This document shows, in pieces, positions 76 through 24,531 of a stretch of 33,846 nt of DNA. The first letter of the stretch is position 1. Each line of letters starts with the position of its first letter. A model generated the notes under the pieces. It saw only the letters and a list, made by a program, of their open reading frames with translations. It had not been told where the DNA came from and did no database searches. The position numbers and the translations under genes are program-made. Source of the stretch: a virus; the IMG/VR virus record IMGVR_UViG_3300010368_000046, positions 1 to 33,846 of that record; one strand, written 5' to 3'.

Positions 76-327
76 TTACGCTCCTAGTTCTGGATCTTCA
101 TCGGCTAGGAAGCCACCAAAGATCTCATTGACATCTGCATCAGAAACATCGCCGTCAGTTACATATGCACGGCTGATCTCTTCTGCAACTTCCATGATAC
201 CAACAAAAGCTGCAACTGCAGCTGCCTGCCAGACCTCTACTCCAACTACGAATCCACCACCGAGGGTAGCGGAAACTTTTAGTACTACGTAAGCAACTGT
301 GCGCTTACTGATTGATTTAATGTTCAT
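76..327 (-). CDS. Small membrane-associated protein near lysis genes
   Basis: This is an 83-residue protein whose first 45 residues are strongly hydrophobic, in two runs (about 9-28 and 31-45), so it probably inserts in the membrane. The C-terminal half is acidic (about 48-83) and ends in a DEDPE-type tail. I chose the ATG at 327 because it forms an ATGA overlap with the lysin stop codon, matching the coupling used by every other gene in this operon; an ATG nine codons upstream (354) is the alternative. Its position after the M23 lysin and holin-like genes suggests a role in lysis, for example a second holin or antiholin. No family is recognised. Confidence 0.75.
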   Translation of the reverse strand: MNIKSISKRTVAYVVLKVSATLGGGFVVGVEVWQAAAVAAFVGIMEVAEEISRAYVTDGDVSDADVNEIFGGFLADEDPELGA

Positions 328-848
328 TTGAGCTCTTTCTTGCAGTGTGGACATGCGTACACGATTGTCGGGGCTTTTTCGATTTTTTTAGGCTCTGAGA
401 TCGATTCTAAGGGCTTTTCAATGTTCTCTGATAGGTATTTGTACAAATCATACACTGTGCCGTAGAAAACGCCTTTGAGGCTGTCTGAGAGGGTGGCATG
501 TAGATGAGGCCCTGTTGACATGCCCTCGGTGTCCACTTTTCCAATTGTTTGGCCCATTTTGACTTTTTCGCCAACTTTTAGGGTCGGCTCGATCTTCATG
601 TGGCAATATCCGACATAGCGAGTCTTGCGGTCCTTGCCATAAACAGTCTGGACCAAAACCCAGCCAAGTACTTTGCTGTACTGAACTAGCTTGACGGTTC
701 CTGCTGACACTGCAGGGATTGGAGTGCCTTTTGGCATCGCCCAGTCAGTTCCGCGGTGCGGGTTAGTCTTCTTGCCCTTAATAGTGCGAATCTTTCCAAA
801 GTGTCCCGTGATCTTGCTGTCCGGGAACGGAAACATAAACTTAGCCAT
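324..848 (-). CDS. M23-family metallopeptidase, probable endolysin
   Basis: This 174-residue protein is a compact LytM/M23 zinc peptidase that would cleave peptide cross-links in peptidoglycan. The catalytic set is complete: HRGTD (H31, D35) gives the H-x3-D zinc pair, H83 lies in YCHM, and GPHLH supplies H115 and H117. There is no signal peptide, so export would depend on a holin, and holin-like genes lie just upstream. After the catalytic domain (1-130) comes a linker and a C-terminal CPHC pair (about residues 167-170), which looks like half of a zinc knuckle. It overlaps the preceding gene as TAATG and the next as ATGA. The alternative is a virion-associated tail peptidase, but the genome context favours lysis. 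Confidence 0.88.
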   Translation of the reverse strand: MAKFMFPFPDSKITGHFGKIRTIKGKKTNPHRGTDWAMPKGTPIPAVSAGTVKLVQYSKVLGWVLVQTVYGKDRKTRYVGYCHMKIEPTLKVGEKVKMGQTIGKVDTEGMSTGPHLHATLSDSLKGVFYGTVYDLYKYLSENIEKPLESISEPKKIEKAPTIVYACPHCKKELK

Positions 849-2793: not shown

Positions 2794-2980
2794 GTGGGTT
2801 TTGCAGTTCCTCAATGATCGCTTCTAGTAGATCTTCATATTCTTCATACTCGCCGGAGGCGATCAAGCTATCTATGCAGTCTACGGCGCTCTGCTTCCCA
2901 GCCATGTAGCCAAGCTGGATGCCAATCTGCTGTGCCTCGTCCCAAATCTTCTGGGTTAGCTTTTCCCATAGCCATCTCAT
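2786..2980 (-). CDS. Small acidic protein of unknown function
   Basis: This is a 64-residue protein with an amphipathic N-terminal half (MRWLWEKLTQKIWDEAQQIG) and a very acidic C-terminal half (about 43-64, with EYEEYEDLLEAIIEEL). It is bounded by an ATGA overlap with the regulator gene upstream and an 8-base overlap with the terminase-small-like gene downstream, so it is a real cistron of the operon. The acidity and size would fit a partner that masks a DNA-binding protein, for example an antirepressor-like or terminase-accessory protein, but nothing in the sequence proves this. Confidence 0.72.
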   Translation of the reverse strand: MRWLWEKLTQKIWDEAQQIGIQLGYMAGKQSAVDCIDSLIASGEYEEYEDLLEAIIEELQNPHE

Positions 2981-3486
2981 GCTGCTGGCAGCTTCTCTAG
3001 CTCTACTACGTACTCTGGGGTAATACCGTAAGGCTTAAATGCTTCGATCAGCTTACGGGAGAGAATGTCTGGGAACGCAGACAGCTGGCCGGCCTCATAC
3101 CTGGAGATCACAGCCGGGTTTACCCGGAGCATACTTGCCAACGCCGTAGGCGTTTTCGCAATTTCCAGACGCCATTGCTTGAACGTCTTGTAGTACTGAC
3201 TCAGCGTATACGGCGGTATGACCATTAGGTTCTGCACTGCTGGCGGTGGCGTGATGGTTACTGGCTTGGTGACGTAGTCCTGGATCTGCTTTACTAGCTC
3301 GTCTTCGTCAATACCAAGGCCAGTCGCAATCACATCGATTATTCTCTGAGATGGGTTCTTGGTCCTGCCATCCTCGATCGCTGTAATTGCTGCACGATTG
3401 ACACCAGCCCTGGTGGCTAGGGCCACCTGCGACAAGCCAAGCTGCAGCCTGGCTAATCTCAATGGGTGGTCTGCGATCCGAGCCAT
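2977..3486 (-). CDS. Tandem helix-turn-helix (XRE-type) transcriptional regulator
   Basis: This 169-residue protein has two XRE/Cro-like helix-turn-helix domains. The first (about 8-62) contains LRLARLQLGLSQVALATRAG, then VNRAAITAIEDGRTKNPS, the canonical pattern for the helix pair. The second (about 103-152) contains FKQWRLEIAKTPTALASMLR, then VNPAVISRYEAGQ. A proline-rich linker (about 74-92) joins them. It probably represses or switches phage promoters, and its own operon promoter at 3628-3655 is an obvious target. No peptidase (LexA-like) domain is attached, so release is unlikely to work by self-cleavage. With no integrase in the window it more likely controls early/late timing than lysogeny. 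It is coupled by TAATG upstream and ATGA downstream. Confidence 0.85.
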   Translation of the reverse strand: MARIADHPLRLARLQLGLSQVALATRAGVNRAAITAIEDGRTKNPSQRIIDVIATGLGIDEDELVKQIQDYVTKPVTITPPPAVQNLMVIPPYTLSQYYKTFKQWRLEIAKTPTALASMLRVNPAVISRYEAGQLSAFPDILSRKLIEAFKPYGITPEYVVELEKLPAA

Positions 3487-9186: not shown

Positions 9187-9343
9187 CATTGAAACCCGAG
9201 AGCCTTGCACCGATGAGGACTGCGAAGGCCTAGACATCCTGGATGCTGAAGAGGACCTTGAAGAATGTTTCTTATGCGACAAGGTCGACTGCATCTGCGA
9301 CGAACTAACCGATCGATACAAGGAACGTGATCTATTTGAGTGA
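9179..9343 (+). CDS. 54-residue acidic Cys-rich protein
   Basis: This is a frame from the GTG at 9179 with TAGGAG about eight bases upstream. It carries seven cysteines, arranged as C2, C10, C15, C33, C36, C41 and C43 (CFLCDKVDCIC), and many Asp and Glu. It overlaps the previous gene by 8 bases and the WhiB gene by 17. The dense cysteines suggest a zinc or iron-sulfur site. I do not recognise the family. Confidence 0.6.
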   Translation: MCDIETREPCTDEDCEGLDILDAEEDLEECFLCDKVDCICDELTDRYKERDLFE

Positions 9344-9632
9344 CAAGCTGAGGTATTTCTGGAGCGCCAAGGGGCATAACCAGTCATGGATGGCACTACA
9401 AGAAGTCATCGAAGAGGTTGGCTACGATCAACTGCCATGTCGGCAGGCACCTGACCTATACCACCCCAATGCTGATGAGAAGTACTTTCTGAAACTCGCT
9501 ACTGATGCATGCCAGAAGTGTCCCATCATCAACGCCTGCGGTGCTTATGCGATCAAGTATGAGAAAGAAGGCATCTGGGGAGGCATGACTGCCAGTGCCC
9601 GGCACAAGATCAGGAAGGCCGGCAAGCTGTGA
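9327..9632 (+). CDS. whiB: WhiB-family iron-sulfur transcriptional regulator
   Basis: This 101-residue protein has the four invariant WhiB cysteines: C38, then C62-x2-C65-x5-C71 (ACQKCPIINAC), followed by the family turn GIWGG (82-86) and a basic C-terminus (SARHKIRKAGKL). WhiB proteins bind a 4Fe-4S cluster and the primary sigma factor domain 4 to redirect transcription; phage copies are known to interfere with host WhiB function. A GTG at 9327 is used as start, though a TTG at 9336 is possible. It overlaps the helicase gene as GTGA. It is the strongest single indicator of an actinobacterial host. Confidence 0.92.
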   Translation: MIYLSDKLRYFWSAKGHNQSWMALQEVIEEVGYDQLPCRQAPDLYHPNADEKYFLKLATDACQKCPIINACGAYAIKYEKEGIWGGMTASARHKIRKAGKL

Positions 9633-15128: not shown

Positions 15129-15718
15129 AGGATCCATGTCCAGCCTGCAGGGCTGGCTTCCAAAATGAATGCCACTATGCCTGGGAAGATGAATCCTGGG
15201 TCTCTTGTGGTGAAATAAAGTTTTCTGCTACAGGAGAGGTAAAGCATGAGGGAATATCTGAGGTCAGCTCGGGAGATCAGGAAGCTTCAACAGGCTATAT
15301 TGAGGACGGGTACGGTGCAGCGAAAGACCTCGACAAGTACAAAGACCCACTCAGCACCGGAAGAAAACGAGCAGCTCAAATGTATCCTATTGAGCCTGGC
15401 ATGGTTTGTGAATGGGCTACTCTTAAGTTCGCTGGTGGTGGCATTGTACCTATTGTTGGCTGCATAGGCAGAGCTGCCTCAGATCGGCACCACGGGCCTG
15501 ATAAGAATACGATGAACAATGCCCCAGGCAACGTTCACAGGATCTGTGACCACTGCCACAACACCTGGCACGCCTTAAACGATCCTGGTTACGGAGATCG
15601 TCCTGACCACACGCTACCGTTTGTACCTGTTGGCGAATGGAAAGAGCATGATGCAACCACCAAAGCTACTCAAGCTGAGATTATTGAAGCTGAGACTAAA
15701 CGCCTGAGCGAGCTGTAA
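15119..15718 (+). CDS. HNH-nuclease-like zinc protein
   Basis: This 199-residue protein starts from a TTG at 15119, which has AAGGA seven bases upstream and overlaps the primase stop by 10 bases. It opens with a Cys-rich stretch (CPACRAGFQNECHYAW). The C-terminal part, about 110-160, has the HNH-like layout: C-x-G-R-A-A (from GCIGRAAS), a DRHHGPDKNTMNN turn, then VHRICDHCHNTWHAL, where His and Asn/His residues flank a CxxC zinc pair. HNH proteins nick or cut DNA in packaging, homing or repair. The active-site His-Asn-His cannot be fixed by eye, so call it HNH-like. It overlaps the convergent phosphoesterase gene by 23 bases. Confidence 0.7.
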   Translation: MEIKDPCPACRAGFQNECHYAWEDESWVSCGEIKFSATGEVKHEGISEVSSGDQEASTGYIEDGYGAAKDLDKYKDPLSTGRKRAAQMYPIEPGMVCEWATLKFAGGGIVPIVGCIGRAASDRHHGPDKNTMNNAPGNVHRICDHCHNTWHALNDPGYGDRPDHTLPFVPVGEWKEHDATTKATQAEIIEAETKRLSEL

Positions 15719-16664
15719 ACTTCTGCCCTCTGAACCAAGCCACTCCATCACGGATCTCAATTAGTTCAAAGTAAGGGATGCCGTTTTCAATAGTAACTAC
15801 GCAAATACCTTGCTGCCAGTTCTCGTAATACTTAGCTGGCGAGCCATCAATGTGAGTGCTTCCGTTAACTGAAGGAACTGCACCGTCAACTCGGCATAGA
15901 CATCCAGGACTAACGGCAACGCTTCGTATAGCTTCGTCACGGTTAAACGCTGTTCGTGACTGAATTTCTAAGCGGTGTGCATGACCAAAGATAGTGCTGA
16001 TGTGAGGATCAGCATTTGTGTAGGCTGCTGCTGTAGATCCGTTTGAGCGAGCCTTGTTTCCATGTACCGCTCTAATAGTAGGCGTAAGCCAGTAAGCTCC
16101 AGCAGGGTAAGCGTCGATGTACTCAACGTCAATCTCGTCCAAGCGAAGAAGGTAAGGGATGCTCATTGTAGGAAGCTCATTGGTGTTGGCTCGCTTCAAG
16201 CCAAAAGCGCTTAGTGCATTCGTCATGATGAATTTCTCCATGCGACGATCGTGGTTGCCTTCTATTAGAACAATCTTAGCTTTGGGTCCAGCGGATTGTC
16301 TTTGCTGCTGCAGAAACAAGTGACCTCTGTCAAAGGCTGCCTGCGTGGTGTTTGCCATAGCAGCTTCTTGTTCAAAGCGCCCCTGCGCCGGTAGATCCAA
16401 AAAGTCACCCAGATTGATAATCGTATCCAACCTATCCGTTTCCTCAAGAAATGAGGTGATTTGCAGCGCAACATCCATAGCACGCTCATCATGAAAAGGA
16501 TCCCATCGGCCATCTAGATTCCTATAACCGATTTGCGGGTCTGGCAGCGCAATATGGACAGTATGCTTGCTTCTTTTAGGTGTGACTTTCTTAGGCGCTG
16601 CCAAGACGACTGGTTGTGCACGGTCAACTGGATCCCAGGCAGGCTTATTTAGATTTTCTAGCAC
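15696..16664 (-). CDS. Calcineurin-like metallophosphoesterase
   Basis: The calcineurin-like metallophosphoesterase motifs are all present in order: DPQIG, NLGDFLD (GD box), EGNHDRRME (GNHD), a later VHGN and FGHAHRL (GHxH). These ligate the two metals. The family cleaves phosphodiesters or phosphomonoesters; in phages the substrate is usually unknown (nucleic acid ends or cyclic nucleotides are suggestions). I chose GTG 16664 because it has AAGGGA about eight bases upstream and only 20 bases of overlap with the HTH gene; an ATG at 16727 would overlap it by 83. It is the last gene of the leftward fibre operon and converges on the HNH gene. Confidence 0.88.
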   Translation of the reverse strand: MLENLNKPAWDPVDRAQPVVLAAPKKVTPKRSKHTVHIALPDPQIGYRNLDGRWDPFHDERAMDVALQITSFLEETDRLDTIINLGDFLDLPAQGRFEQEAAMANTTQAAFDRGHLFLQQQRQSAGPKAKIVLIEGNHDRRMEKFIMTNALSAFGLKRANTNELPTMSIPYLLRLDEIDVEYIDAYPAGAYWLTPTIRAVHGNKARSNGSTAAAYTNADPHISTIFGHAHRLEIQSRTAFNRDEAIRSVAVSPGCLCRVDGAVPSVNGSTHIDGSPAKYYENWQQGICVVTIENGIPYFELIEIRDGVAWFRGQKFTARSGV

Positions 16665-16875
16665 AGTTACATTCCCTTGCTCGATGTTTGCGTAAAACTG
16701 TCTCGCCAACAGAAAATCCCAGATCATCCAGCGCTTTCTTTAAAGCTGCGCTGGACCAACGAGGATCTGCTAGTGATGTTTCTAAAACTTCTTGATCTTC
16801 TTTACTAAGCTCCAGGCTCTTCCTTCCCATCAAGCAAAGAAAGTTTTCAGTGGGCGGTGTTAGTCCTTCTAACAT
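16645..16875 (-). CDS. Small helix-turn-helix DNA-binding protein
   Basis: This is a 76-residue protein starting MLEGLTPPTENFLCLM. I took ATG 16875 because AAGGAG lies five to six bases upstream; an ATG at 16896 is also open. The core LSKEDQEVLETSLADPRWSS followed by AALKKALDDLGFSVGETVLRKHR is a typical phage helix-turn-helix of the 'paired with terminase or packaging' kind, and it ends in a basic CNCARKSK tail. In actinophages such proteins often sit near terminase or recombination genes. Here it is the penultimate gene of the fibre operon, just before the phosphoesterase. It could regulate this operon. Confidence 0.75.
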   Translation of the reverse strand: MLEGLTPPTENFLCLMGRKSLELSKEDQEVLETSLADPRWSSAALKKALDDLGFSVGETVLRKHRARECNCARKSK

Positions 16876-16927: not shown

Positions 16928-17809
16928 TTATGAAGGTACTTCAAAGCCCCCACTAGACGTGAACTTGTAAATTCTTTTTTCTATGTAAGGACTTCCTGCC
17001 CCATCTGCTTCATTAATTGTGTAAGTGGTATAGTCTGCAGTTATATTTGCAAGCTCGCCATAGTCGGCTGGGTATTTTATGTAGATAACCCCACTACCGC
17101 CCAGTCCGTTCCCGGCATACCCTCCATTTATTGATCCAGTTGCACCGTTGCCAGTATTTATTGCACCAGGATAAGCGCTTGATGGAAAGCCTAAACTTTC
17201 ATAGTAAACATTTGAGCTACCAGTTATTGTATAACTATATGTAGCATATATACCGGGATTTCCTCCGGCGCCTAGCAGTACTGAGTCAAAAAATGAGGAT
17301 CTGTGTGCAGGAATGAGGCCAGGCCCTGCAAGGCCATTAGACGTATACAGCCTAACCCTATCGTTTCCAGACAGGCCCCAGTAAGCGTACGAGTTTATAT
17401 TTTCGCCCCCCACGCCGGCTCCAGCTCGAGTGTTGTAATAGGTCAGTAGCTCACCGTAGGTAGTGCCACTGTTAGTTGTTCGAGTATAGTTTGTTTCGGG
17501 AGTAATGTAGTCAAGCACTGTGTAGTATTGATCAACAAGGCCAAGCCAGTCCCTGTATACAGATGTCGGATAAGTCGGTGCATAAAAAAGAGTCTGGTTA
17601 TTTTGTCTGATGGTAGAGACGTTGCCGCCAGCCCCCACAAAAACTTGATACGGATGGTAGCCAGTTAAAGTAAACTTTCTTGACACTTGGCAGCCACCAT
17701 TTCCAGGGTATGGCCCTTGAGCGTTCTGGCCCCCACCTTGCAGGAAAACTGCTGCATCTCTCCACACCGCATTGTTTGGGCTATTGATCCCAAGAAGCAG
17801 CTTAGGCAT
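16928..17809 (-). CDS. Glycine-rich tail fibre / adhesin
   Basis: This is a 293-residue protein. Large parts are Gly, Ser, Asn, Thr and Tyr rich, with a glycine-rich core such as GAGGN, GAGVGGEN, GLGGSGVIYIKYP and GNGATGSINGGYAGNGLGGS. The GGSGVIYIKY pattern is the hallmark of phage glycine-rich adhesin tips known in long-tailed and short-tailed phages, where polyglycine helices form the receptor-binding end. It probably binds the host surface. The coding sequence is AT-richer in feel than the replication genes, as in the rest of the island. It overlaps no neighbour and its Shine-Dalgarno is GGAG. Confidence 0.78.
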   Translation of the reverse strand: MPKLLLGINSPNNAVWRDAAVFLQGGGQNAQGPYPGNGGCQVSRKFTLTGYHPYQVFVGAGGNVSTIRQNNQTLFYAPTYPTSVYRDWLGLVDQYYTVLDYITPETNYTRTTNSGTTYGELLTYYNTRAGAGVGGENINSYAYWGLSGNDRVRLYTSNGLAGPGLIPAHRSSFFDSVLLGAGGNPGIYATYSYTITGSSNVYYESLGFPSSAYPGAINTGNGATGSINGGYAGNGLGGSGVIYIKYPADYGELANITADYTTYTINEADGAGSPYIEKRIYKFTSSGGFEVPS

Positions 17810-17811
17810 TT

Positions 17812-18045
17812 TTAAAAGGCTCCTGTATCTTCAGGTGAATGGAAAACGTCTATGTCTTCCCGATAAATGCTACCTATGACCGCAAACGCTCCTCTGATTG
17901 AGCTATTAAACGAAGTCTGTAGCCACCTGCCACCCAATTGCAGATCGACAGCAAGAAATTCTTCACCTCTGTGCTCCTGTGAATCAGGCACTACTAAAAC
18001 CTGTTCAACGATATTATCGTCATTAATTTTTGCAAAATGAGCCAT
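17812..18045 (-). CDS. Small tail protein of the MAHFA family
   Basis: This is a 77-residue protein beginning MAHFAKINDDNIVEQVLVVP and containing GGRWLQTSFNSSIRGAFAVI plus GSIYRED. This matches a small virion-associated family widespread in cyanophages and other tailed phages ('MAHFAxLDENNxVxxVIVV... W-QTSYN...R...a.iG..Y'). Its exact role is unknown but it appears in tail or baseplate gene clusters. No Shine-Dalgarno is seen; a TACAAT box ends six bases before the ATG, which suggests its mRNA may be leaderless in addition to read-through from the upstream gene. Confidence 0.78.
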   Translation of the reverse strand: MAHFAKINDDNIVEQVLVVPDSQEHRGEEFLAVDLQLGGRWLQTSFNSSIRGAFAVIGSIYREDIDVFHSPEDTGAF

Positions 18046-18057: not shown

Positions 18058-18690
18058 TCAGGCTGCTAGAGGGTTGCTATTTATCTTCTCTATTACCAGA
18101 CTCGCTAGTTCTTCTGGCGAAATATCTTGTCCAGTAAGCTCAAAGATGGATGTAGATTTTGCCCCAATATTGCCACAGGTGACTATGTAGTCATAGGGGG
18201 CCAAGGAGTTGTTGCAGTTTATAACACATCCATACTCAGTTACTCCGTTAGCTATGCCATCCCCTAAGTAGCCAATCTTTGAAAACCCAGTAGGCGTTTC
18301 AACCCAAACCCCCGCTTTACCCGCTATCCTTATTCCCTCAATACCAAATTCAGCCACTGTATCTATGATGATCTGTTCCATCCAAGTTCCGTAGGCAGAT
18401 CCATTGCCCGAATCGGTAAATTTTATTACGGGTGAAATCATAAGCTGCCCAGGACCATGCCAACCAACGTGACCGGGGCGGGAGTCTCTAATCACTCTAC
18501 TGCCGTCCGTAGGCAGCCCCTTCACACCTACTTCCCTTCCAGCAGTATAAACTTCACTGAACTCAAAAAGCAGTACTTGATTTGGCTCTGTTCCTTCTGC
18601 AACAGAAGAATGTTTTTTTTCGCGTATTTTCATCCATTCTCTATAATCTAAAAAGTCTGGGTTGAAGGCTACTTTTATAAACTCAGTCAT
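18058..18690 (-). CDS. lipB: LipB-family octanoyltransferase (lipoate/octanoate-protein ligase)
   Basis: This is a 210-residue protein, full length for LipB (E. coli LipB has 213 residues). The signature is continuous: YTAGRE (48-53), RPGHVGWHGPGQL (71-83, like the family's RGG-x-T-[YW]-HGPGQL), AGKAGVWVET (123-132), SKIGYLGDGI (137-146), EYGCVINCNN (152-161) and IVTCGNIGAKSTSI (169-182). The two catalytic residues are present: K138 and C172, matching E. coli K135 and C169 with the same offset of three. Differences are RPG for RGG and G for T. LipB moves octanoyl from acyl-carrier protein onto a lysine of a lipoyl domain. It lies among tail-fibre genes with ATGA coupling; no LipA or lipoyl domain is seen in the window. 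Confidence 0.9.
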   Translation of the reverse strand: MTEFIKVAFNPDFLDYREWMKIREKKHSSVAEGTEPNQVLLFEFSEVYTAGREVGVKGLPTDGSRVIRDSRPGHVGWHGPGQLMISPVIKFTDSGNGSAYGTWMEQIIIDTVAEFGIEGIRIAGKAGVWVETPTGFSKIGYLGDGIANGVTEYGCVINCNNSLAPYDYIVTCGNIGAKSTSIFELTGQDISPEELASLVIEKINSNPLAA

Positions 18691-19019
18691 CGGATTCGCA
18701 GCCCCGAAGTTAATGCTTGAACCTCAATATCAGTAAGGCCTAAGTCAACAAGTTTCTCTTTAGCCGTTAGAGGAGCGAGTTTGATAGCAAGTTCTTCGTC
18801 TGTAAGATCACGAACAGTCCACACCTGAGTGATAACCCCGTCTACTTCTTGTGGCGGGGATTCATAAAGTACTTCATACTCACTTGCGTATGGAGGGTCT
18901 GTCTCAACAACTGCCTGCCACCCGTCGGGGAGTGGATCTCCGGTTTTCCAGCCCGGAATTACTAGCTGAACATCTCCGATGTGGCGTGGGTATTCGCCTT
19001 CTGCGTTTATGTATATCAT
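18687..19019 (-). CDS. Tail-fibre-assembly-like protein
   Basis: This is a 110-residue protein with a pattern familiar from tail-fibre assembly or chaperone-like proteins next to phage fibres: DGWQAVVETDPPYASEYEVL in the middle and VDGVITQVWTVRDLTDEEL after it, then a helical C-terminus (KLVDLGLTDIEVQALTSGL). It follows the propeller fibre and its stop overlaps the LipB ATG as ATGA. I think it is a fibre chaperone or small tail subunit; the call is by pattern only. It has a good Shine-Dalgarno (AGGAG). Confidence 0.6.
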   Translation of the reverse strand: MIYINAEGEYPRHIGDVQLVIPGWKTGDPLPDGWQAVVETDPPYASEYEVLYESPPQEVDGVITQVWTVRDLTDEELAIKLAPLTAKEKLVDLGLTDIEVQALTSGLRIR

Positions 19020-19031
19020 TGTTATTTCTCC

Positions 19032-20369
19032 TTAGAGCCCTACTTGGTATTGAGTTAAAGAATTAGCGGTTGCACCTGTAAGGGTTCCGCCCCTATTGGT
19101 TACGGTACCTGAATAACTTGTTAGTGAGGTTAGCGCAACAGGATATGTCTGATTTATTGTGCTTAGCGAGCTTGCTGCATAAACCAGGGGCACGCCGTTA
19201 AGAGTATAAGTCCCGGTTAGGCTTCCGTCATTAGGTAGCTTAGCAATCAAAAGGTCAGCGCCACCTGAACCTGCTGAGGCTGTCTGCCCAACGATACAAA
19301 TATTTTCTGCTGAATCAAGTGCTATTGCATGCCCTTGTTCAATACCAGTGCCCCCCAAGGTGCGTTGCCATTGAATAGTTCCTGATGAGTCGTACTTAGC
19401 AATCAAAAGGTCCTCGCTACCTGCACCTGCTGAGGCTGTATAGCCAAGCAAATAAAGATTCTCGCTAGAGTCAATAGCTAACGAAGTAGCGCGGTCAAAA
19501 CCAGTGCCACCCAAAGTGCGTTGCCATTCAAAACCATATACTGAGTCGTACTTAGCGAGAAAGAGACGGTTAGAGCTTGTATAGCCAGCCACATAAGCAT
19601 TATCGCTGCTTCTCGTTGCTACCGAGATGCCATATTCACCACTACTCCCACCCAGCTTGCGCTGCCATATAACAGCGCCGTTAGAGTCGTATTTAATCAG
19701 TGCGAGGTCTTGGGATAAATAACTGGTGCGCCCCTTACGGTAAACTGCCAGTCGTATATACCCAAGTGCATAAACATAATCTAGGGGATCAGTTGTTACT
19801 GATGTTCCCCATGTATAACCAGTCCCACCCAGCAAGCGCGACCATGACTGATTGCCGTTTGAGAGGTACTTAGCAATTAATAAATCAGGCCTGGACCCTT
19901 GCCTTGAATATGTTTCTCCAACCACATAAATGCTATCAGTTGAGTTAACCCTTACCGACAAGCCTTTTTCAGTACCAGACGCACCCAAAGTGCGTTGCCA
20001 TTGAAGAGATCCTGATGAGCTGTACTTGGCAAGCAAAAGGTCACTGCCACCTCCACCTCCTGGCGAGCTTGTAGTGCCAGTTACATAAACGTTATCAGTT
20101 GAGTCAAGTGATACCGATGCGCCATAGTCAAGACCAGTGCCACCCAAAGTGCGTTGCCATTGAATAACGCCGTCAGAGTTGTACTTAATGAGCAAGACAA
20201 CATTATTGGTTACACCTCCTGAGGTTGTCTCGCCAACCACGTAAAAATTATCGCTTGAGTCAATAGCTATTGATCTGCCAGCCTCAAAACCAGTACCACC
20301 TAGCGTTCCTATCCAGTAATCACCTTTAGGTCCATATGGATAACCTAGTAGCGCCATACTCCAAGCCAT
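19032..20369 (-). CDS. Seven-repeat beta-propeller tail fibre
   Basis: This is a 445-residue protein. Seven repeats of about 47-60 residues each follow the pattern [W-Q-R-T-L-G-G-T-G]...[S-x-D-S-x-D-N-x-Y-V-x-G]...[L-L-x-A-K-Y]. Examples are WQRTLGGTGLDYGASVSLDS and then TDNVYVTGTTSS. This is an SBBP/NHL-type propeller unit, so the protein should fold as a seven-bladed wheel. It has a short N-terminal lead (1-18) and a 90-residue C-terminal beta domain. Propellers bind carbohydrate or protein, consistent with a host-recognition role; the repeats are also prone to recombination, which can alter specificity. It lies between the collagen-like fibre and the assembly-like protein. Confidence 0.82.
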   Translation of the reverse strand: MAWSMALLGYPYGPKGDYWIGTLGGTGFEAGRSIAIDSSDNFYVVGETTSGGVTNNVVLLIKYNSDGVIQWQRTLGGTGLDYGASVSLDSTDNVYVTGTTSSPGGGGGSDLLLAKYSSSGSLQWQRTLGASGTEKGLSVRVNSTDSIYVVGETYSRQGSRPDLLIAKYLSNGNQSWSRLLGGTGYTWGTSVTTDPLDYVYALGYIRLAVYRKGRTSYLSQDLALIKYDSNGAVIWQRKLGGSSGEYGISVATRSSDNAYVAGYTSSNRLFLAKYDSVYGFEWQRTLGGTGFDRATSLAIDSSENLYLLGYTASAGAGSEDLLIAKYDSSGTIQWQRTLGGTGIEQGHAIALDSAENICIVGQTASAGSGGADLLIAKLPNDGSLTGTYTLNGVPLVYAASSLSTINQTYPVALTSLTSYSGTVTNRGGTLTGATANSLTQYQVGL

Positions 20370-20371
20370 AA

Positions 20372-22273
20372 TTAAATCCCCAGGTCGCCAGCAAGGATGT
20401 AGGTGTTAGTACCTATACATTTTATGCCTGCTACCGAGTACTGTTCAGCAGTCAAAAGGTTTCCCCCTTTGGAGTTCAGTGTCATGCCAGCACCAGCAGC
20501 GAAGGTGATCTGGGCTACTCCATTCTGCATGAAGTCAACCTGCTGACCGACTGTTAGTCCCTGCACAGTAATAGTAATTGGAGCTGAGTTTAGGATCAGC
20601 TTTCCAGCGTCTGCTGAAGTCAGAGTGTAGCTTACGGCCTTAATGTCAATTACCTGAGTTGAACTAAAGCCACCGTCAGCACCATCAGCTCCGTCAGCAC
20701 CTGCAGGGCCTGTATCACCTTGTATGCCCTGAATACCTTGGTCGCCCTGAATACCTTGAATGCCCTGAATACCTTGGTCGCCTTGGTCGCCTTGAGGTCC
20801 AGTATCGCCCTGAATACCTTGAATGCCCTGAATACCTTGGTCGCCCTGAGGCCCAGTATCACCTTGGACACCTTGTATACCTTGAGGGCCTTGAGGTCCT
20901 GTTGGGCCTGGAACGGTTGAATCTGCGCCTACATCTCCCTGAATACCTTGTGGGCCTTGAGGTCCAACATCTCCCTGAACACCTTGAATGCCCTGAATAC
21001 CTTGGTCGCCTTGAGGTCCAGTATCGCCTTGAATACCCTGAATGCCCTGAATACCTTGGTCGCCTTGAGGTCCAACTTCTCCTTGAATACCTTGAATGCC
21101 TTGAGGGCCTTGAGGTCCTGCTACACCAGTTCTAACAACAACAAAAAGAACACTGTCATTGTTGGTAAATATGTAACCACCTTCAACATAGCTAGCTGGA
21201 ATCTGGTCATAGGTAGAGAACTCAACTGGGTCACCAGTTACTTCCCACTTCTGATAGTTAGCCGAGTTTCCAGTTTCCTGAATAATTAGGAAGTCACCAG
21301 CTTTGATGAGGTGAATAAATAGATTTACATCTTCACCATCTCTGTCAATGTGGCTTGCACTAAGAATAGTTGCATCAATTTGACCTGCCGTGTTCCAAAT
21401 ACCGTGCCCTGAACCTGGGTCACCACTTGTAATTGTAGTTTTTACTGTGTATGGGAAGAATGCAGATGAACCACCATCGGCTCCAGCCAAACCCTGAATA
21501 CCCTGAATGCCTTGAATACCTTGTGGGCCAGTTTCGCCTTGAATACCTTGGTCGCCTTGAGGTCCTGTTGGGCCTGGAACGGTTGAATCTGCGCCTGTTT
21601 CGCCTTGGATACCTTGTGGGCCTTGAGGTCCAACTGGACCTGGAACGGTTGAGTCAGCTCCAGTCTCGCCCTGAATACCTTGAATGCCTTGATCGCCCTG
21701 TGGACCAGTATCTCCTTGGATACCTTGAATACCTTGAATGCCCTGATCGCCCTGTGGACCAGTATCTCCCTGAATACCTTCGATGCCCTGGATGCCTTGG
21801 TCGCCTTGAGGCCCAGTATCACCTTGAATACCCTGAATGCCCTGAATACCTTGTGGCCCAGTCAAGCCAATAGGGCCAATAGGGCCCTCCTCGCCAGTGT
21901 TGCCAGTTGGGCCTTGCAAGCCCTGATCGCCTTGTGGCCCCTGAGGTCCAACTTCTCCTTGGATACCTTGAGCACCAGTAGCACCAGTTAAACCAGTAGC
22001 ACCAGTTAAACCAGTAGCACCGGTGTCGCCAATAAGGCTCTCAAGCCATTGAGCTTCTGTGCCTCCATAGCCGTTTGCTACAGCGATTTGGTAAGCCGAG
22101 AGGCCTGAAGCGCCTTGAGTGAAGTACGGAAGCCCGTTCCAATTTGTAACGCCGTCACCGATTTTAAACTTCTTAGTGTCCAGCTCTACGGCTAGCTCAC
22201 CTTGGGCTAAGACGGGGTTAGCAGCGGTCCATGCGGTCGCGTTTCCACGCCGGATCTGAATAGTTACAGCCAT
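20372..22273 (-). CDS. Collagen-like tail fibre with central and C-terminal domains
   Basis: This is a 633-residue protein. Residues 1-50 are the attachment segment common to phage fibres ([32 protein letters not shown]). Two long Gly-X-Y regions (about 75-275 and 390-530) are dominated by GPQG, GIQG and GDTG units and form triple helices, giving a trimeric shaft. Between them is a folded domain of about 115 residues ([20 protein letters not shown] and on) and at the end a tip domain homologous to that of the fibre at 1565-2050. The protein probably forms the main fibre. It overlaps the next gene as TAATG. Highly repetitive DNA makes it a likely site of copy-number variation or misassembly. 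Confidence 0.88.
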
Positions 22274-22542
22274 TAAATGCCTCCAGCATCCAAAATAGTT
22301 ATGCCACCATACACACTGTCAGGAAGCCCGCCGTCTACGTTCATCCATCCACCTGTAATATCACTAAACTTTATGCGCTTAGAGGTCTTGCCGTCATGAG
22401 CATGATCCCCAGGACTTGCCTGGCTCGCTAGTATTCCTAAGGTGTGGTGCTGTGCTAGGGTACTCTTGTCTACATCAGAGTTAATGTGAAAGTCATTGAC
22501 CTCACTAGCAGAGGCTCCAGCATTTCCGAATACAGCAGACAT
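22273..22542 (-). CDS. Small structural tail protein
   Basis: This is an 89-residue protein starting [20 protein letters not shown]. Residues about 28-55 contain AQHHTLG and SPGDHAHDG, a His-rich turn seen in phage minor tail proteins and fibre connectors. I chose the ATG at 22542 because a -10 box (TATACT) ends seven bases before it, with no Shine-Dalgarno, as for the 3620 gene; longer frames exist but lie across the promoter. It opens the leftward fibre operon and is coupled to the collagen-like fibre by TAATG. It may link the fibre to the tail. Confidence 0.7.
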
Positions 22543-22554
22543 ATAATAAGTATA
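22542..22554. promoter_or_regulatory. Overlapping divergent -10 boxes
   Basis: On the plus strand TATAAT (22542-22547) serves the nuclease gene at 22566, whose Shine-Dalgarno AGGAG lies at 22557-22561. On the minus strand TATACT (22554-22549) ends six bases before the ATG at 22542, so the fibre operon would be leaderless. The two promoters share the same few bases and should compete. -35 boxes are not convincing. Confidence 0.65.
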
Positions 22555-22565
22555 CAGGAGACGAC

Positions 22566-23000
22566 ATGAGTAAAGCCAAGAACATAGGCACAAGAGCAGA
22601 AACCGCTGTCCGCAACTACTTGCTGTCTGCAGGGTACGGAGAGCTTGAAGCACATCGCAATGTGCTTACTGGCTCAGACGATCAAGGCGATGTTTGGCTA
22701 CGAGAGCCAGACCACGGCTTAATTGTTTTTGAGCTTAAAGGTGGCAACATGGCCAAGAACGCTAGCTTTGAACAAGTTAAAAAGTGGTACGCTGAAACTG
22801 AGCGTGAAAAGAAAAACGCTTCCGCTAAGTTTGGCTTTCTAGTTACTCAGCGTGCTGGTGTTGGATACCCGAGAGCTGGTGAATGGTGGGCATACGCAAC
22901 GCTAGGCGATCTGGCCTCGCTGAAGTTCAGCGCTGGCTTAGAAGAAAATACCATAGTTCGGTTAACCCTGAAAGAACTCGTAGAAATTATTCATGGCTAA
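22566..23000 (+). CDS. Holliday-junction-resolvase-like PD-(D/E)XK nuclease
   Basis: This is a 144-residue protein. The early Glu lies in KNIGTRAETAV (E12), followed by SDDQGDVWL (D42) and VFELKGG (E56, K58), which is the G-x(3)-E ... GD ... E-x-K layout of Hjc-like and related phage resolvase nucleases. It would resolve branched DNA before or during packaging. Its stop overlaps the large terminase gene by 8 bases, so it is coupled to it, as is common for resolvases needed by terminase. A general Mrr/VRR-type nuclease is the alternative. Confidence 0.82.
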   Translation: MSKAKNIGTRAETAVRNYLLSAGYGELEAHRNVLTGSDDQGDVWLREPDHGLIVFELKGGNMAKNASFEQVKKWYAETEREKKNASAKFGFLVTQRAGVGYPRAGEWWAYATLGDLASLKFSAGLEENTIVRLTLKELVEIIHG

Positions 23001-24531
23001 AGACTCTGTTGACTTTTCTGAAGCGCTACGACGGCTGGGCGAAGGCCTACAAGAATCGTCGCACCAGCCGAATCTATACGATTACGTACCAAGTGAAAAG
23101 CAACTCCTCTTTCATCAAGATGAGAATCCTGATCGACTATACATCGGAGGAAACCGATCTGGGAAATCACTTGGATCAACTATCGAAGCAATATGGTGGC
23201 TCACTCACACACATCCGTATCGCAAGACCCCAGAAGGACCAGTACGAGGAAGAGTCGTAGCCGTTGACTTCCTAAACGGTGTAGACAAGATTATCCTTCC
23301 GCTGTACAAACAATGGCTACCAAAGTCATACCTTATTAATGGCAGCTGGGCAGATAGCTACTCTCGTGAGCGTCACGTGCTTACACTTAACAACGGGTCA
23401 TTTGTGGAGTTCATGTCCCAGGACCAGGATCTAGATAAGTTTGCTGGTTCGTCCAGGCACTTTGTTCACTTCGATGAGGAGTGTCCCAAGACGGTTTACC
23501 AAGAATGTATTGCACGTCTAGTCGACACTGGCGGTGTCTGGTGGATGTCTCAAACACCAGTACAAGGAATGGAGTGGATCTATGACGATCTTTACCAGCC
23601 TGCAAAAGAAGGCAAAAAAGCTATCGGCGTCGTCGAAGCAACTATGGAGGATAACCCAACTCTTAGCAAAGAAGCCATCGCTAGGTTCGTTAACGAGCTT
23701 TCTGAAGAAGAAAGACTCATTAGGACCAAGGGACAATACGTGCATCTTGGTGGGGCAGTCTTCCCAGATTTCACGCCATCGACACATTGCCTTCCAAAAG
23801 GTAGCTTCAAACCCACAGATGACCACCACATTATCCGGACTATGGATTCTGGCTACACCAATCCAACAGTATGGCTGTGGCTTGCCGTCGATGCAGACAA
23901 TAATGTCACGGTATTCAAAGAACACTATGCTGCCAAGAAAACAGTTGCCGAGCACGCCACAATAGTCAACCAGATCACACGTGACATGGAGCGTGACTTT
24001 GGCGTAAAGGTTTGGCTAACTACTGGCGACCCTGCAATTAAGCAGACCAAAGAACAGTCTGGAACTTCAGTTCAACAGGAATATCAACGAGCTGGGATTT
24101 TCATCGCTGTAGACATGATCCCTAAGGATCGACGTATTGGGCTAGAGCGAGTTCGCCAGTACATGAAGTGGAACAAGAAGTCTAACCGTCCTCACCTGAT
24201 GATCACCGACGACTGCCCTAAACTCATTGCTGAGCTACCAAAACTTCGCTGGCAGAAGTGGGCGAGCGCTAAAGTTGCCGACATGAATAACAAGAAGGAA
24301 GACATTCGTGACAAAGATAACCACTGTTACGACGCGCTGAAATACGCTATGACCTTCCTAACTGACCTCACACCTGATACGCTGGACGAGAAGAAAAATA
24401 CTAGACAATTTCATGACACATTTAGAGACGCGTTTCAGCCGGTGTCCCCAATCTCGGACATTGATGACTCAGATGACTGGGGACCCGGTTGGACAGGATC
24501 TTCCGGCATGAGATCATTGGAAGGATACTAA
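22993..24531 (+). CDS. terL: Terminase large subunit
   Basis: This 512-residue protein is the packaging ATPase-nuclease. Walker A is GGNRSGKS (52-59); the Walker B acidic pair is in FVHFDEEC (D161, E162, E163). The C-terminal nuclease domain starts near residue 280 with MDSGYTNPTVW and its late acidic site is in DKDNHCYDALKYAM (about 447-460). It cuts concatemeric DNA and pumps it into the procapsid through the portal coded at 25158. It overlaps the resolvase-like gene by 8 bases and the next gene as TAATG. The likely small subunit is encoded far away on the other strand (2056-2793). Confidence 0.95.
   Translation: MAKDSVDFSEALRRLGEGLQESSHQPNLYDYVPSEKQLLFHQDENPDRLYIGGNRSGKSLGSTIEAIWWLTHTHPYRKTPEGPVRGRVVAVDFLNGVDKIILPLYKQWLPKSYLINGSWADSYSRERHVLTLNNGSFVEFMSQDQDLDKFAGSSRHFVHFDEECPKTVYQECIARLVDTGGVWWMSQTPVQGMEWIYDDLYQPAKEGKKAIGVVEATMEDNPTLSKEAIARFVNELSEEERLIRTKGQYVHLGGAVFPDFTPSTHCLPKGSFKPTDDHHIIRTMDSGYTNPTVWLWLAVDADNNVTVFKEHYAAKKTVAEHATIVNQITRDMERDFGVKVWLTTGDPAIKQTKEQSGTSVQQEYQRAGIFIAVDMIPKDRRIGLERVRQYMKWNKKSNRPHLMITDDCPKLIAELPKLRWQKWASAKVADMNNKKEDIRDKDNHCYDALKYAMTFLTDLTPDTLDEKKNTRQFHDTFRDAFQPVSPISDIDDSDDWGPGWTGSSGMRSLEGY

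Follow-up and report, generated by a model that had tools for sequence, protein, structure and literature searches.

The stretch of DNA analysed here, which we call the window, comprises the 33,846 nucleotides of IMG/VR virus record IMGVR_UViG_3300010368_000046; the record is a fragment and thus represents a partial phage genome. Table 1 lists the features to which we refer. Among them is an intact reading frame of 210 amino acids, with no internal stops, which resembles lipB and lies in a series of tail genes. LipB is a bacterial enzyme that attaches a fatty acid to lysines of proteins: it moves octanoate from acyl carrier protein (ACP) to lipoyl domains.

Table 1. Features of the window and their coordinates
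Feature	Coordinates	Strand	Remarks
M23 peptidase, likely a lysin	324..848		oriented like the tail cassette
Protein with two Cro/C1-type helix-turn-helix domain matches	2977..3486		
WhiB-family regulator gene	9327..9632	+	actinobacterial hallmark, host clue
Metallophosphoesterase	15696..16727	-	other boundary of the cassette; 64-82% identical in relatives that cover it well
293-aa protein	16928..17809	-	16% Gly; GGSGVIYIKYP-like end recalling glycine-rich phage adhesins
77-aa phrog_7759 protein	17812..18045	-	downstream of lipB; 12-nt gap, no overlap
lipB-like gene	18058..18690	-	ATG at 18690, stop 18058-18060; HGPGQL 78-83, K138, C172, RPG 71-73, Y153
110-aa small tail-associated protein (phrog_4998)	18687..19019	-	upstream of lipB; overlaps its start as ATGA
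445-aa SBBP beta-propeller protein	19032..20369	-	putative tail tip
633-aa collagen-like tail fibre	20372..22273	-	Mtd_N N-terminus
Conserved gene	22273..22653	-	lies where the variable tail cassette is entered; coordinates use the ORF start as listed, the real one may be internal
Terminase large subunit	22993..24531	+	related to 80 viral contigs, near Arthrobacter phages

The variable tail region lies between the conserved gene at its entrance and the metallophosphoesterase. Its content varies strongly between relatives, where it includes fibres, glycine-rich adhesins, lysins, small partner proteins and one HNH gene. The lipB-like gene sits inside these conserved ends and on the same strand as the tail genes. 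An earlier note on this DNA, made from the sequence alone, had placed it in a tail-fibre operon and described it as translationally coupled (ATGA) between a fibre-assembly-like gene and a small tail gene. The setting is borne out by the collagen-like fibre with its Mtd_N domain, the beta-propeller, the phrog_4998 and phrog_7759 proteins and the adhesin-like 293-aa protein. The coupling stands for the upstream gene, whose stop overlaps the lipB start by 4 bases, but the downstream gene starts only after a short gap. A scan for promoters gave no signal above that of shuffled sequences.

The neighbours on the two sides recur elsewhere. In relatives, homologues of the phrog_7759 protein directly follow an adhesin-like gene with 27-35% Gly in 16 of 17 cases; these adhesin-like genes match phrog_2295 in the three tested, and for one there is phrog_863, 'tail fiber assembly'. 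In the window it is lipB that fills this adhesin slot directly upstream of phrog_7759, while the less glycine-rich, adhesin-like 293-aa protein lies beyond. The likeness to the glycine-rich tail adhesins that have a phrog_7759 partner (L043, L062, L023 and others) is one of position, since those are structural receptor-binding proteins with no sequence relation to LipB. On the other side, a 61% relative of the 110-aa protein directly follows the beta-propeller gene in phage L187, where there is no lipB. Given the propeller/110-aa pair in L187 and the adhesin/phrog_7759 pair in relatives, lipB appears to be set between two tail-tip modules. Two relatives of the propeller, 31-41% identical and without lipB, were found in our scan, which revealed no close relatives of the 293-aa protein. 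The latter has no family match; it is probably a receptor-binding tip.

Some observations on these cassettes deserve mention in their own right. The phrog_7759 family (MAHFAxIDENNIV...) follows a glycine-rich adhesin-like gene at L043:5262-6350, L062:5357-6486 and 14 other places, and occurs also in L189, which suggests that these proteins are dedicated adhesin partners or chaperones. The SBBP beta-propeller gene together with phrog_4998 forms a mobile pair in phages that are otherwise different (the window and L187:4674-5996). Further, tail cassettes contain a family of 229-aa proteins, represented by L040:5061-5750 and six similar genes, which has no Pfam match.

The protein itself is, in the earlier note, a full-length LipB-like protein with the HGPGQL box and both catalytic residues, K138 and C172, and this description holds. 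The Pfam model PF21948 (LplA-B_cat) matches residues 15-203 with an E-value of 6.6e-18, above its cut-off, and among solved structures the closest relative is LipB of M. tuberculosis (1w66, 1.4e-25). The profile that had been proposed for checking, PF03099, gives no match to the window, whereas PF21948, the newer LplA/LipB catalytic model, does so in the same type of search. The protein reaches 157.2 bits with the NCBIfam LipB equivalog PRK14345 (cut-off 155) and 77.7 bits with the more general TIGR00214 lipB model, slightly below the cut-off of 83.55. An AlphaFold2 model made from 57 sequences has a mean pLDDT of 91.7 and a pTM of 0.90. Its top Foldseek match is again 1w66 (TM 0.90, 1.4 Å), the comparison that the earlier note had suggested, followed by LipB of T. 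thermophilus (2qhs, TM 0.83); LplA does not exceed TM 0.72, and biotin ligases are mostly lower still. Thus a LipB fold, rather than that of LplA or a biotin ligase, is predicted with high confidence. Together with the E-values, the fold excludes a chance match, and the view that the phage protein is a LipB by descent and by fold is supported.

The viral structure library that we searched contains only three significant matches, all lipoate-ligase-like proteins (Siphoviridae sp. ctVCm11 and ctg6c78, and Bodo saltans virus), two of which are named LplA, the ATP-using branch. They share with the phage protein the superfamily fold and a viral carrier, but with TM of about 0.6 and 11-13% identity they are not LipB-like.

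The two catalytic residues align with K142 and C176 of the M. tuberculosis enzyme, and the distance of 34 between them is that of the published pairs, K135/C169 in E. coli and K142/C176 in M. tuberculosis (PMC9307952), as the earlier note had said for E. coli. It had also noticed RPG in place of RGG, and alignment proves this change to be real: the loop reads R71-P72-G73 at a position where glycine is invariant in 62 cellular LipBs. In addition there are H44F, T76G, Y86S, L91F and H153Y, so that, with G72P, six of the columns invariant in the 62 cellular LipBs are substituted in the phage. The remaining 17 of the 23 invariant columns, including R71, H78, K138 and C172, are kept, as against a match to the consensus at 62 of the other 185 columns (Fisher p = 0.0004), which indicates that the catalytic core has been selectively retained. 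In a leave-one-out comparison the phage protein has lost 7 near-invariant positions, and no cellular LipB has lost more than 2.

It is relevant where these changes fall. In M. tuberculosis LipB, the residues equivalent to the lipoyl contacts of LplA are L47, T54, R76, T81, H83 and H157, and full activity requires the RGG loop (R76-G77-G78); E. coli LipB retains 39% activity as the G72A/G73A mutant and 21% as R71A (PMC9307952). At 28% identity to the M. tuberculosis enzyme, the phage protein retains T49, R71 and H78, whereas T81 has become G76, H157 has become Y153, G77 has become P72 and L47 has probably become F42. Three of the six invariant-column changes, G72P, T76G and H153Y, therefore sit at published RGG-loop or acyl-pocket positions. 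The earlier note took the intact pair as an argument for enzyme activity; the pair is indeed intact, but the argument is tempered by the six changes and by the place of these three. With catalytic residues kept and pocket residues changed, the machinery for transfer is present and the acyl pocket is altered, that is, either a shifted specificity or a weakened activity. The loss of all six invariant residues could abolish catalysis, and the long branch of the phage protein, at about 4 changes per column, would likewise agree with a loss of the enzymatic constraint.

The reading frame gives further evidence. The phage gene differs from its cellular counterpart in L086 by 126 replacements, which would have been accompanied by about 6.3 nonsense changes without selection, while none is found (P ~0.002); the expectation is rough in that it assigns the replacements to the phage side, as branch lengths suggest. 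The retained core, the intact frame and the lost invariant residues, taken together, point to selection that maintains the protein, under a regime unlike that of cellular LipB.

As to its origin, the closest LipBs among 84,980 species genomes belong to lake-water Micrococcales and Rhodoluna, at about 40% identity. Of the LipB matches in 300 genomes of the same family, the top seven all came from genomes of 1.3-1.7 Mb and none exceeded 42%. Phylogenetic analysis separates the phage protein and four LipBs from genomes of 1.3-1.5 Mb (L193-L196) from all 57 others with support 96/85; in an earlier tree without these four, the phage protein grouped with L086-L088 (unstarred support). Within the set of sequences compared, W103 and K178 are common to the phage and the Luna group only. 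The phage branch measures 3.8-4.2 changes per column, about 15 times the median length (0.23-0.28). Branches of this length may be placed wrongly, but here identity, tree and common residues agree. On this agreement we take it as shown that the gene descends from the LipB of small-genome Microbacteriaceae (Luna/Rhodoluna group). The cellular relatives (L086-L088, L193-L196) are likewise full length, have the catalytic Lys and Cys and are 40-42% identical to the phage copy, in which their H44, G72, T76, Y86, L91 and H153 are absent. Further, cellular lipB (L086) adjoins lipA, whereas the phage copy sits in the tail cassette. Thus, by its tree and its flanks, this is an intact metabolic gene of cellular origin with phage genes on both sides.

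The WhiB gene, the kinship of the terminase (45%) to that of Arthrobacter phages and the LipB tree all point to a host that is probably actinobacterial. More narrowly, we infer a freshwater Luna host.

How rare is such a gene among viruses? Among the 80 viral contigs that share the terminase, tblastn found no LipB; nor did a six-frame search of the terminase-related contigs with a profile HMM which, although built without the phage sequence, recovers the gene of the window at 5.5e-52. PF21948 found no LipB in 50 whole related records, with the window as positive control. No LipB was found when IMG/VR was scanned with the phage protein and with the alignment, and the 20 stretches of IMG/VR that carry the exact DNA pattern for WHGPGQL contain none; such pattern scans miss relatives without the motif, and the window itself was excluded from the scans. 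In PHROGs neither the phage LipB nor the cellular one of L086 has a match. INPHARED, with 50,697 phage records, yielded six LipB matches, all in bacterial or bacterial-looking DNA. Two are near-identical 'Acinetobacter phage' contigs, one of which (CAKLQH020000002.1) carries rpoD, gltA and sdhC. In Mcat17 (KR093641.1) the match falls past an att mark, where no genes are annotated, and MT835496.1, a scaffold of fecal origin, has an actinobacterial lipB-lipA region and lpd/sucB-like and glnA-like genes. The other two, MT837824 and MT837987, are scaffolds without annotation whose genes look bacterial.

In the literature we found no paper that treats lipB or a lipoate gene as an auxiliary gene of phages, nor any case of a LipB acylating a lysine of a virion protein; the word 'lipoyl' in two phage papers refers to spanin lipidation. 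The collections and papers searched thus offer no phage precedent, in line with the earlier note, which knew of no described phage tail operon with this gene. Within these collections, no other LipB lies in genuine virus DNA, and one genome carries this one. The presence of an intact, strongly altered LipB gene in a phage tail cassette is confirmed, and it is so for a single incomplete genome.

What could such a protein do? The reading that we favour, with about even confidence, is that of a captured Cys/Lys acyltransferase, still selected as a protein, with a shifted specificity, which is kept in a host-recognition (tail tip) cassette. A LipB would have been captured from a small-genome Microbacteriaceae host of the Luna/Rhodoluna group. 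Cys172, activated by Lys138, would form a thioester with an acyl group from acyl-ACP or acyl-CoA and would then pass this group to a lysine. Given that the pocket is changed and that hosts of this lineage possess their own LipB, the donor or the acceptor would probably be other than the pair of octanoyl-ACP and lipoyl domain. Because lipB lies among tail-tip genes, with which it is presumably co-expressed, the likeliest acceptor would be a lysine of a fibre or an adhesin, or else a host protein encountered late in infection, and at a guess we lean slightly towards a virion protein. The sharper proposal, that the captured LipB now acylates lysines of the phage's own tail tip, or a host surface or regulatory protein, seems to us unlikely as it stands. 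Nothing in the window matched a lipoyl domain or GcvH. We considered the 77-aa neighbour as a lipoyl-domain-like acceptor and rejected it: its lysine is not conserved, its model has a pLDDT of 76 and it has no lipoyl-like match.

One may ask whether the gene is simply an auxiliary metabolic gene, an octanoyltransferase that raises lipoylation of the host pyruvate or 2-oxoglutarate dehydrogenase or of the glycine cleavage system and thereby feeds energy and one-carbon supply during infection. The score above the LipB equivalog cut-off, the intact catalytic pair and HGPGQL box, a predicted fold near-identical to that of M. tuberculosis LipB and a donor lineage that is a probable host lineage all accord with this. 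However, bacteria of that lineage already have lipB beside lipA, the phage copy lies among tail genes and not among early metabolism genes, residues of the acyl pocket and RGG loop are altered, and the very long branch would be unexpected if function were unchanged. In our opinion this makes the explanation rather improbable; it is for the host LipB, the tail-gene neighbours and the altered pocket that we prefer a shifted substrate to a supplement of host lipoylation.

It is also conceivable, though again we would not expect it, that the fold has been reused without catalysis, as a tail-assembly partner, as a chaperone for the fibre, or as a decoy to which octanoyl-ACP or host lipoyl domains bind. 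The place in the adhesin slot beside the usual partner gene, the translational coupling with a small tail protein and the six lost invariant residues would suit such a role. Against it, the residues kept at the catalytic site include K138, C172, H78 and R71, for which a pure scaffold would have no use.

The earlier note had itself proposed to look for the gene in related phages, and regarded its absence from all of them as counting against its view. The conservation that it looked for is not there: lipB is absent from all 37 related loci that hold the cassette from end to end. Since the cassette is highly variable between relatives, one could take lipB for an unused passenger at a recombination hotspot, heading for loss. 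We do not regard it as a decaying passenger despite its absence from these loci, because about six nonsense changes would be expected and none is seen. A passenger would also be hard to reconcile with the preferential retention of core residues, with more change than a recent arrival would show and with a codon composition that is already cassette-like (GC3 of 0.40, against 0.35-0.40 in the cassette genes and 0.50-0.53 in Luna lipB), so that we consider this explanation quite improbable. An assembly chimera or bacterial contamination, which the six misleading 'phage' records might bring to mind, is very improbable indeed, as phage genes lie on both flanks, the upstream one in a 4-base overlap, GC3 is like that of the genes around it and the LipBs of the bacteria searched do not exceed 42% identity.

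The acyltransferase of shifted specificity that we favour is a LipB far diverged at acyl-pocket and loop positions with its catalytic pair kept, and it occupies the slot of a host-range adhesin. Lipoylation governs entry into the TCA cycle. If the protein is active, it would give the virus a handle on lipoylation, or else provide a lipid-type modification of a virion protein; thus the phage may use LipB to change either the metabolism of its host or its own particle.
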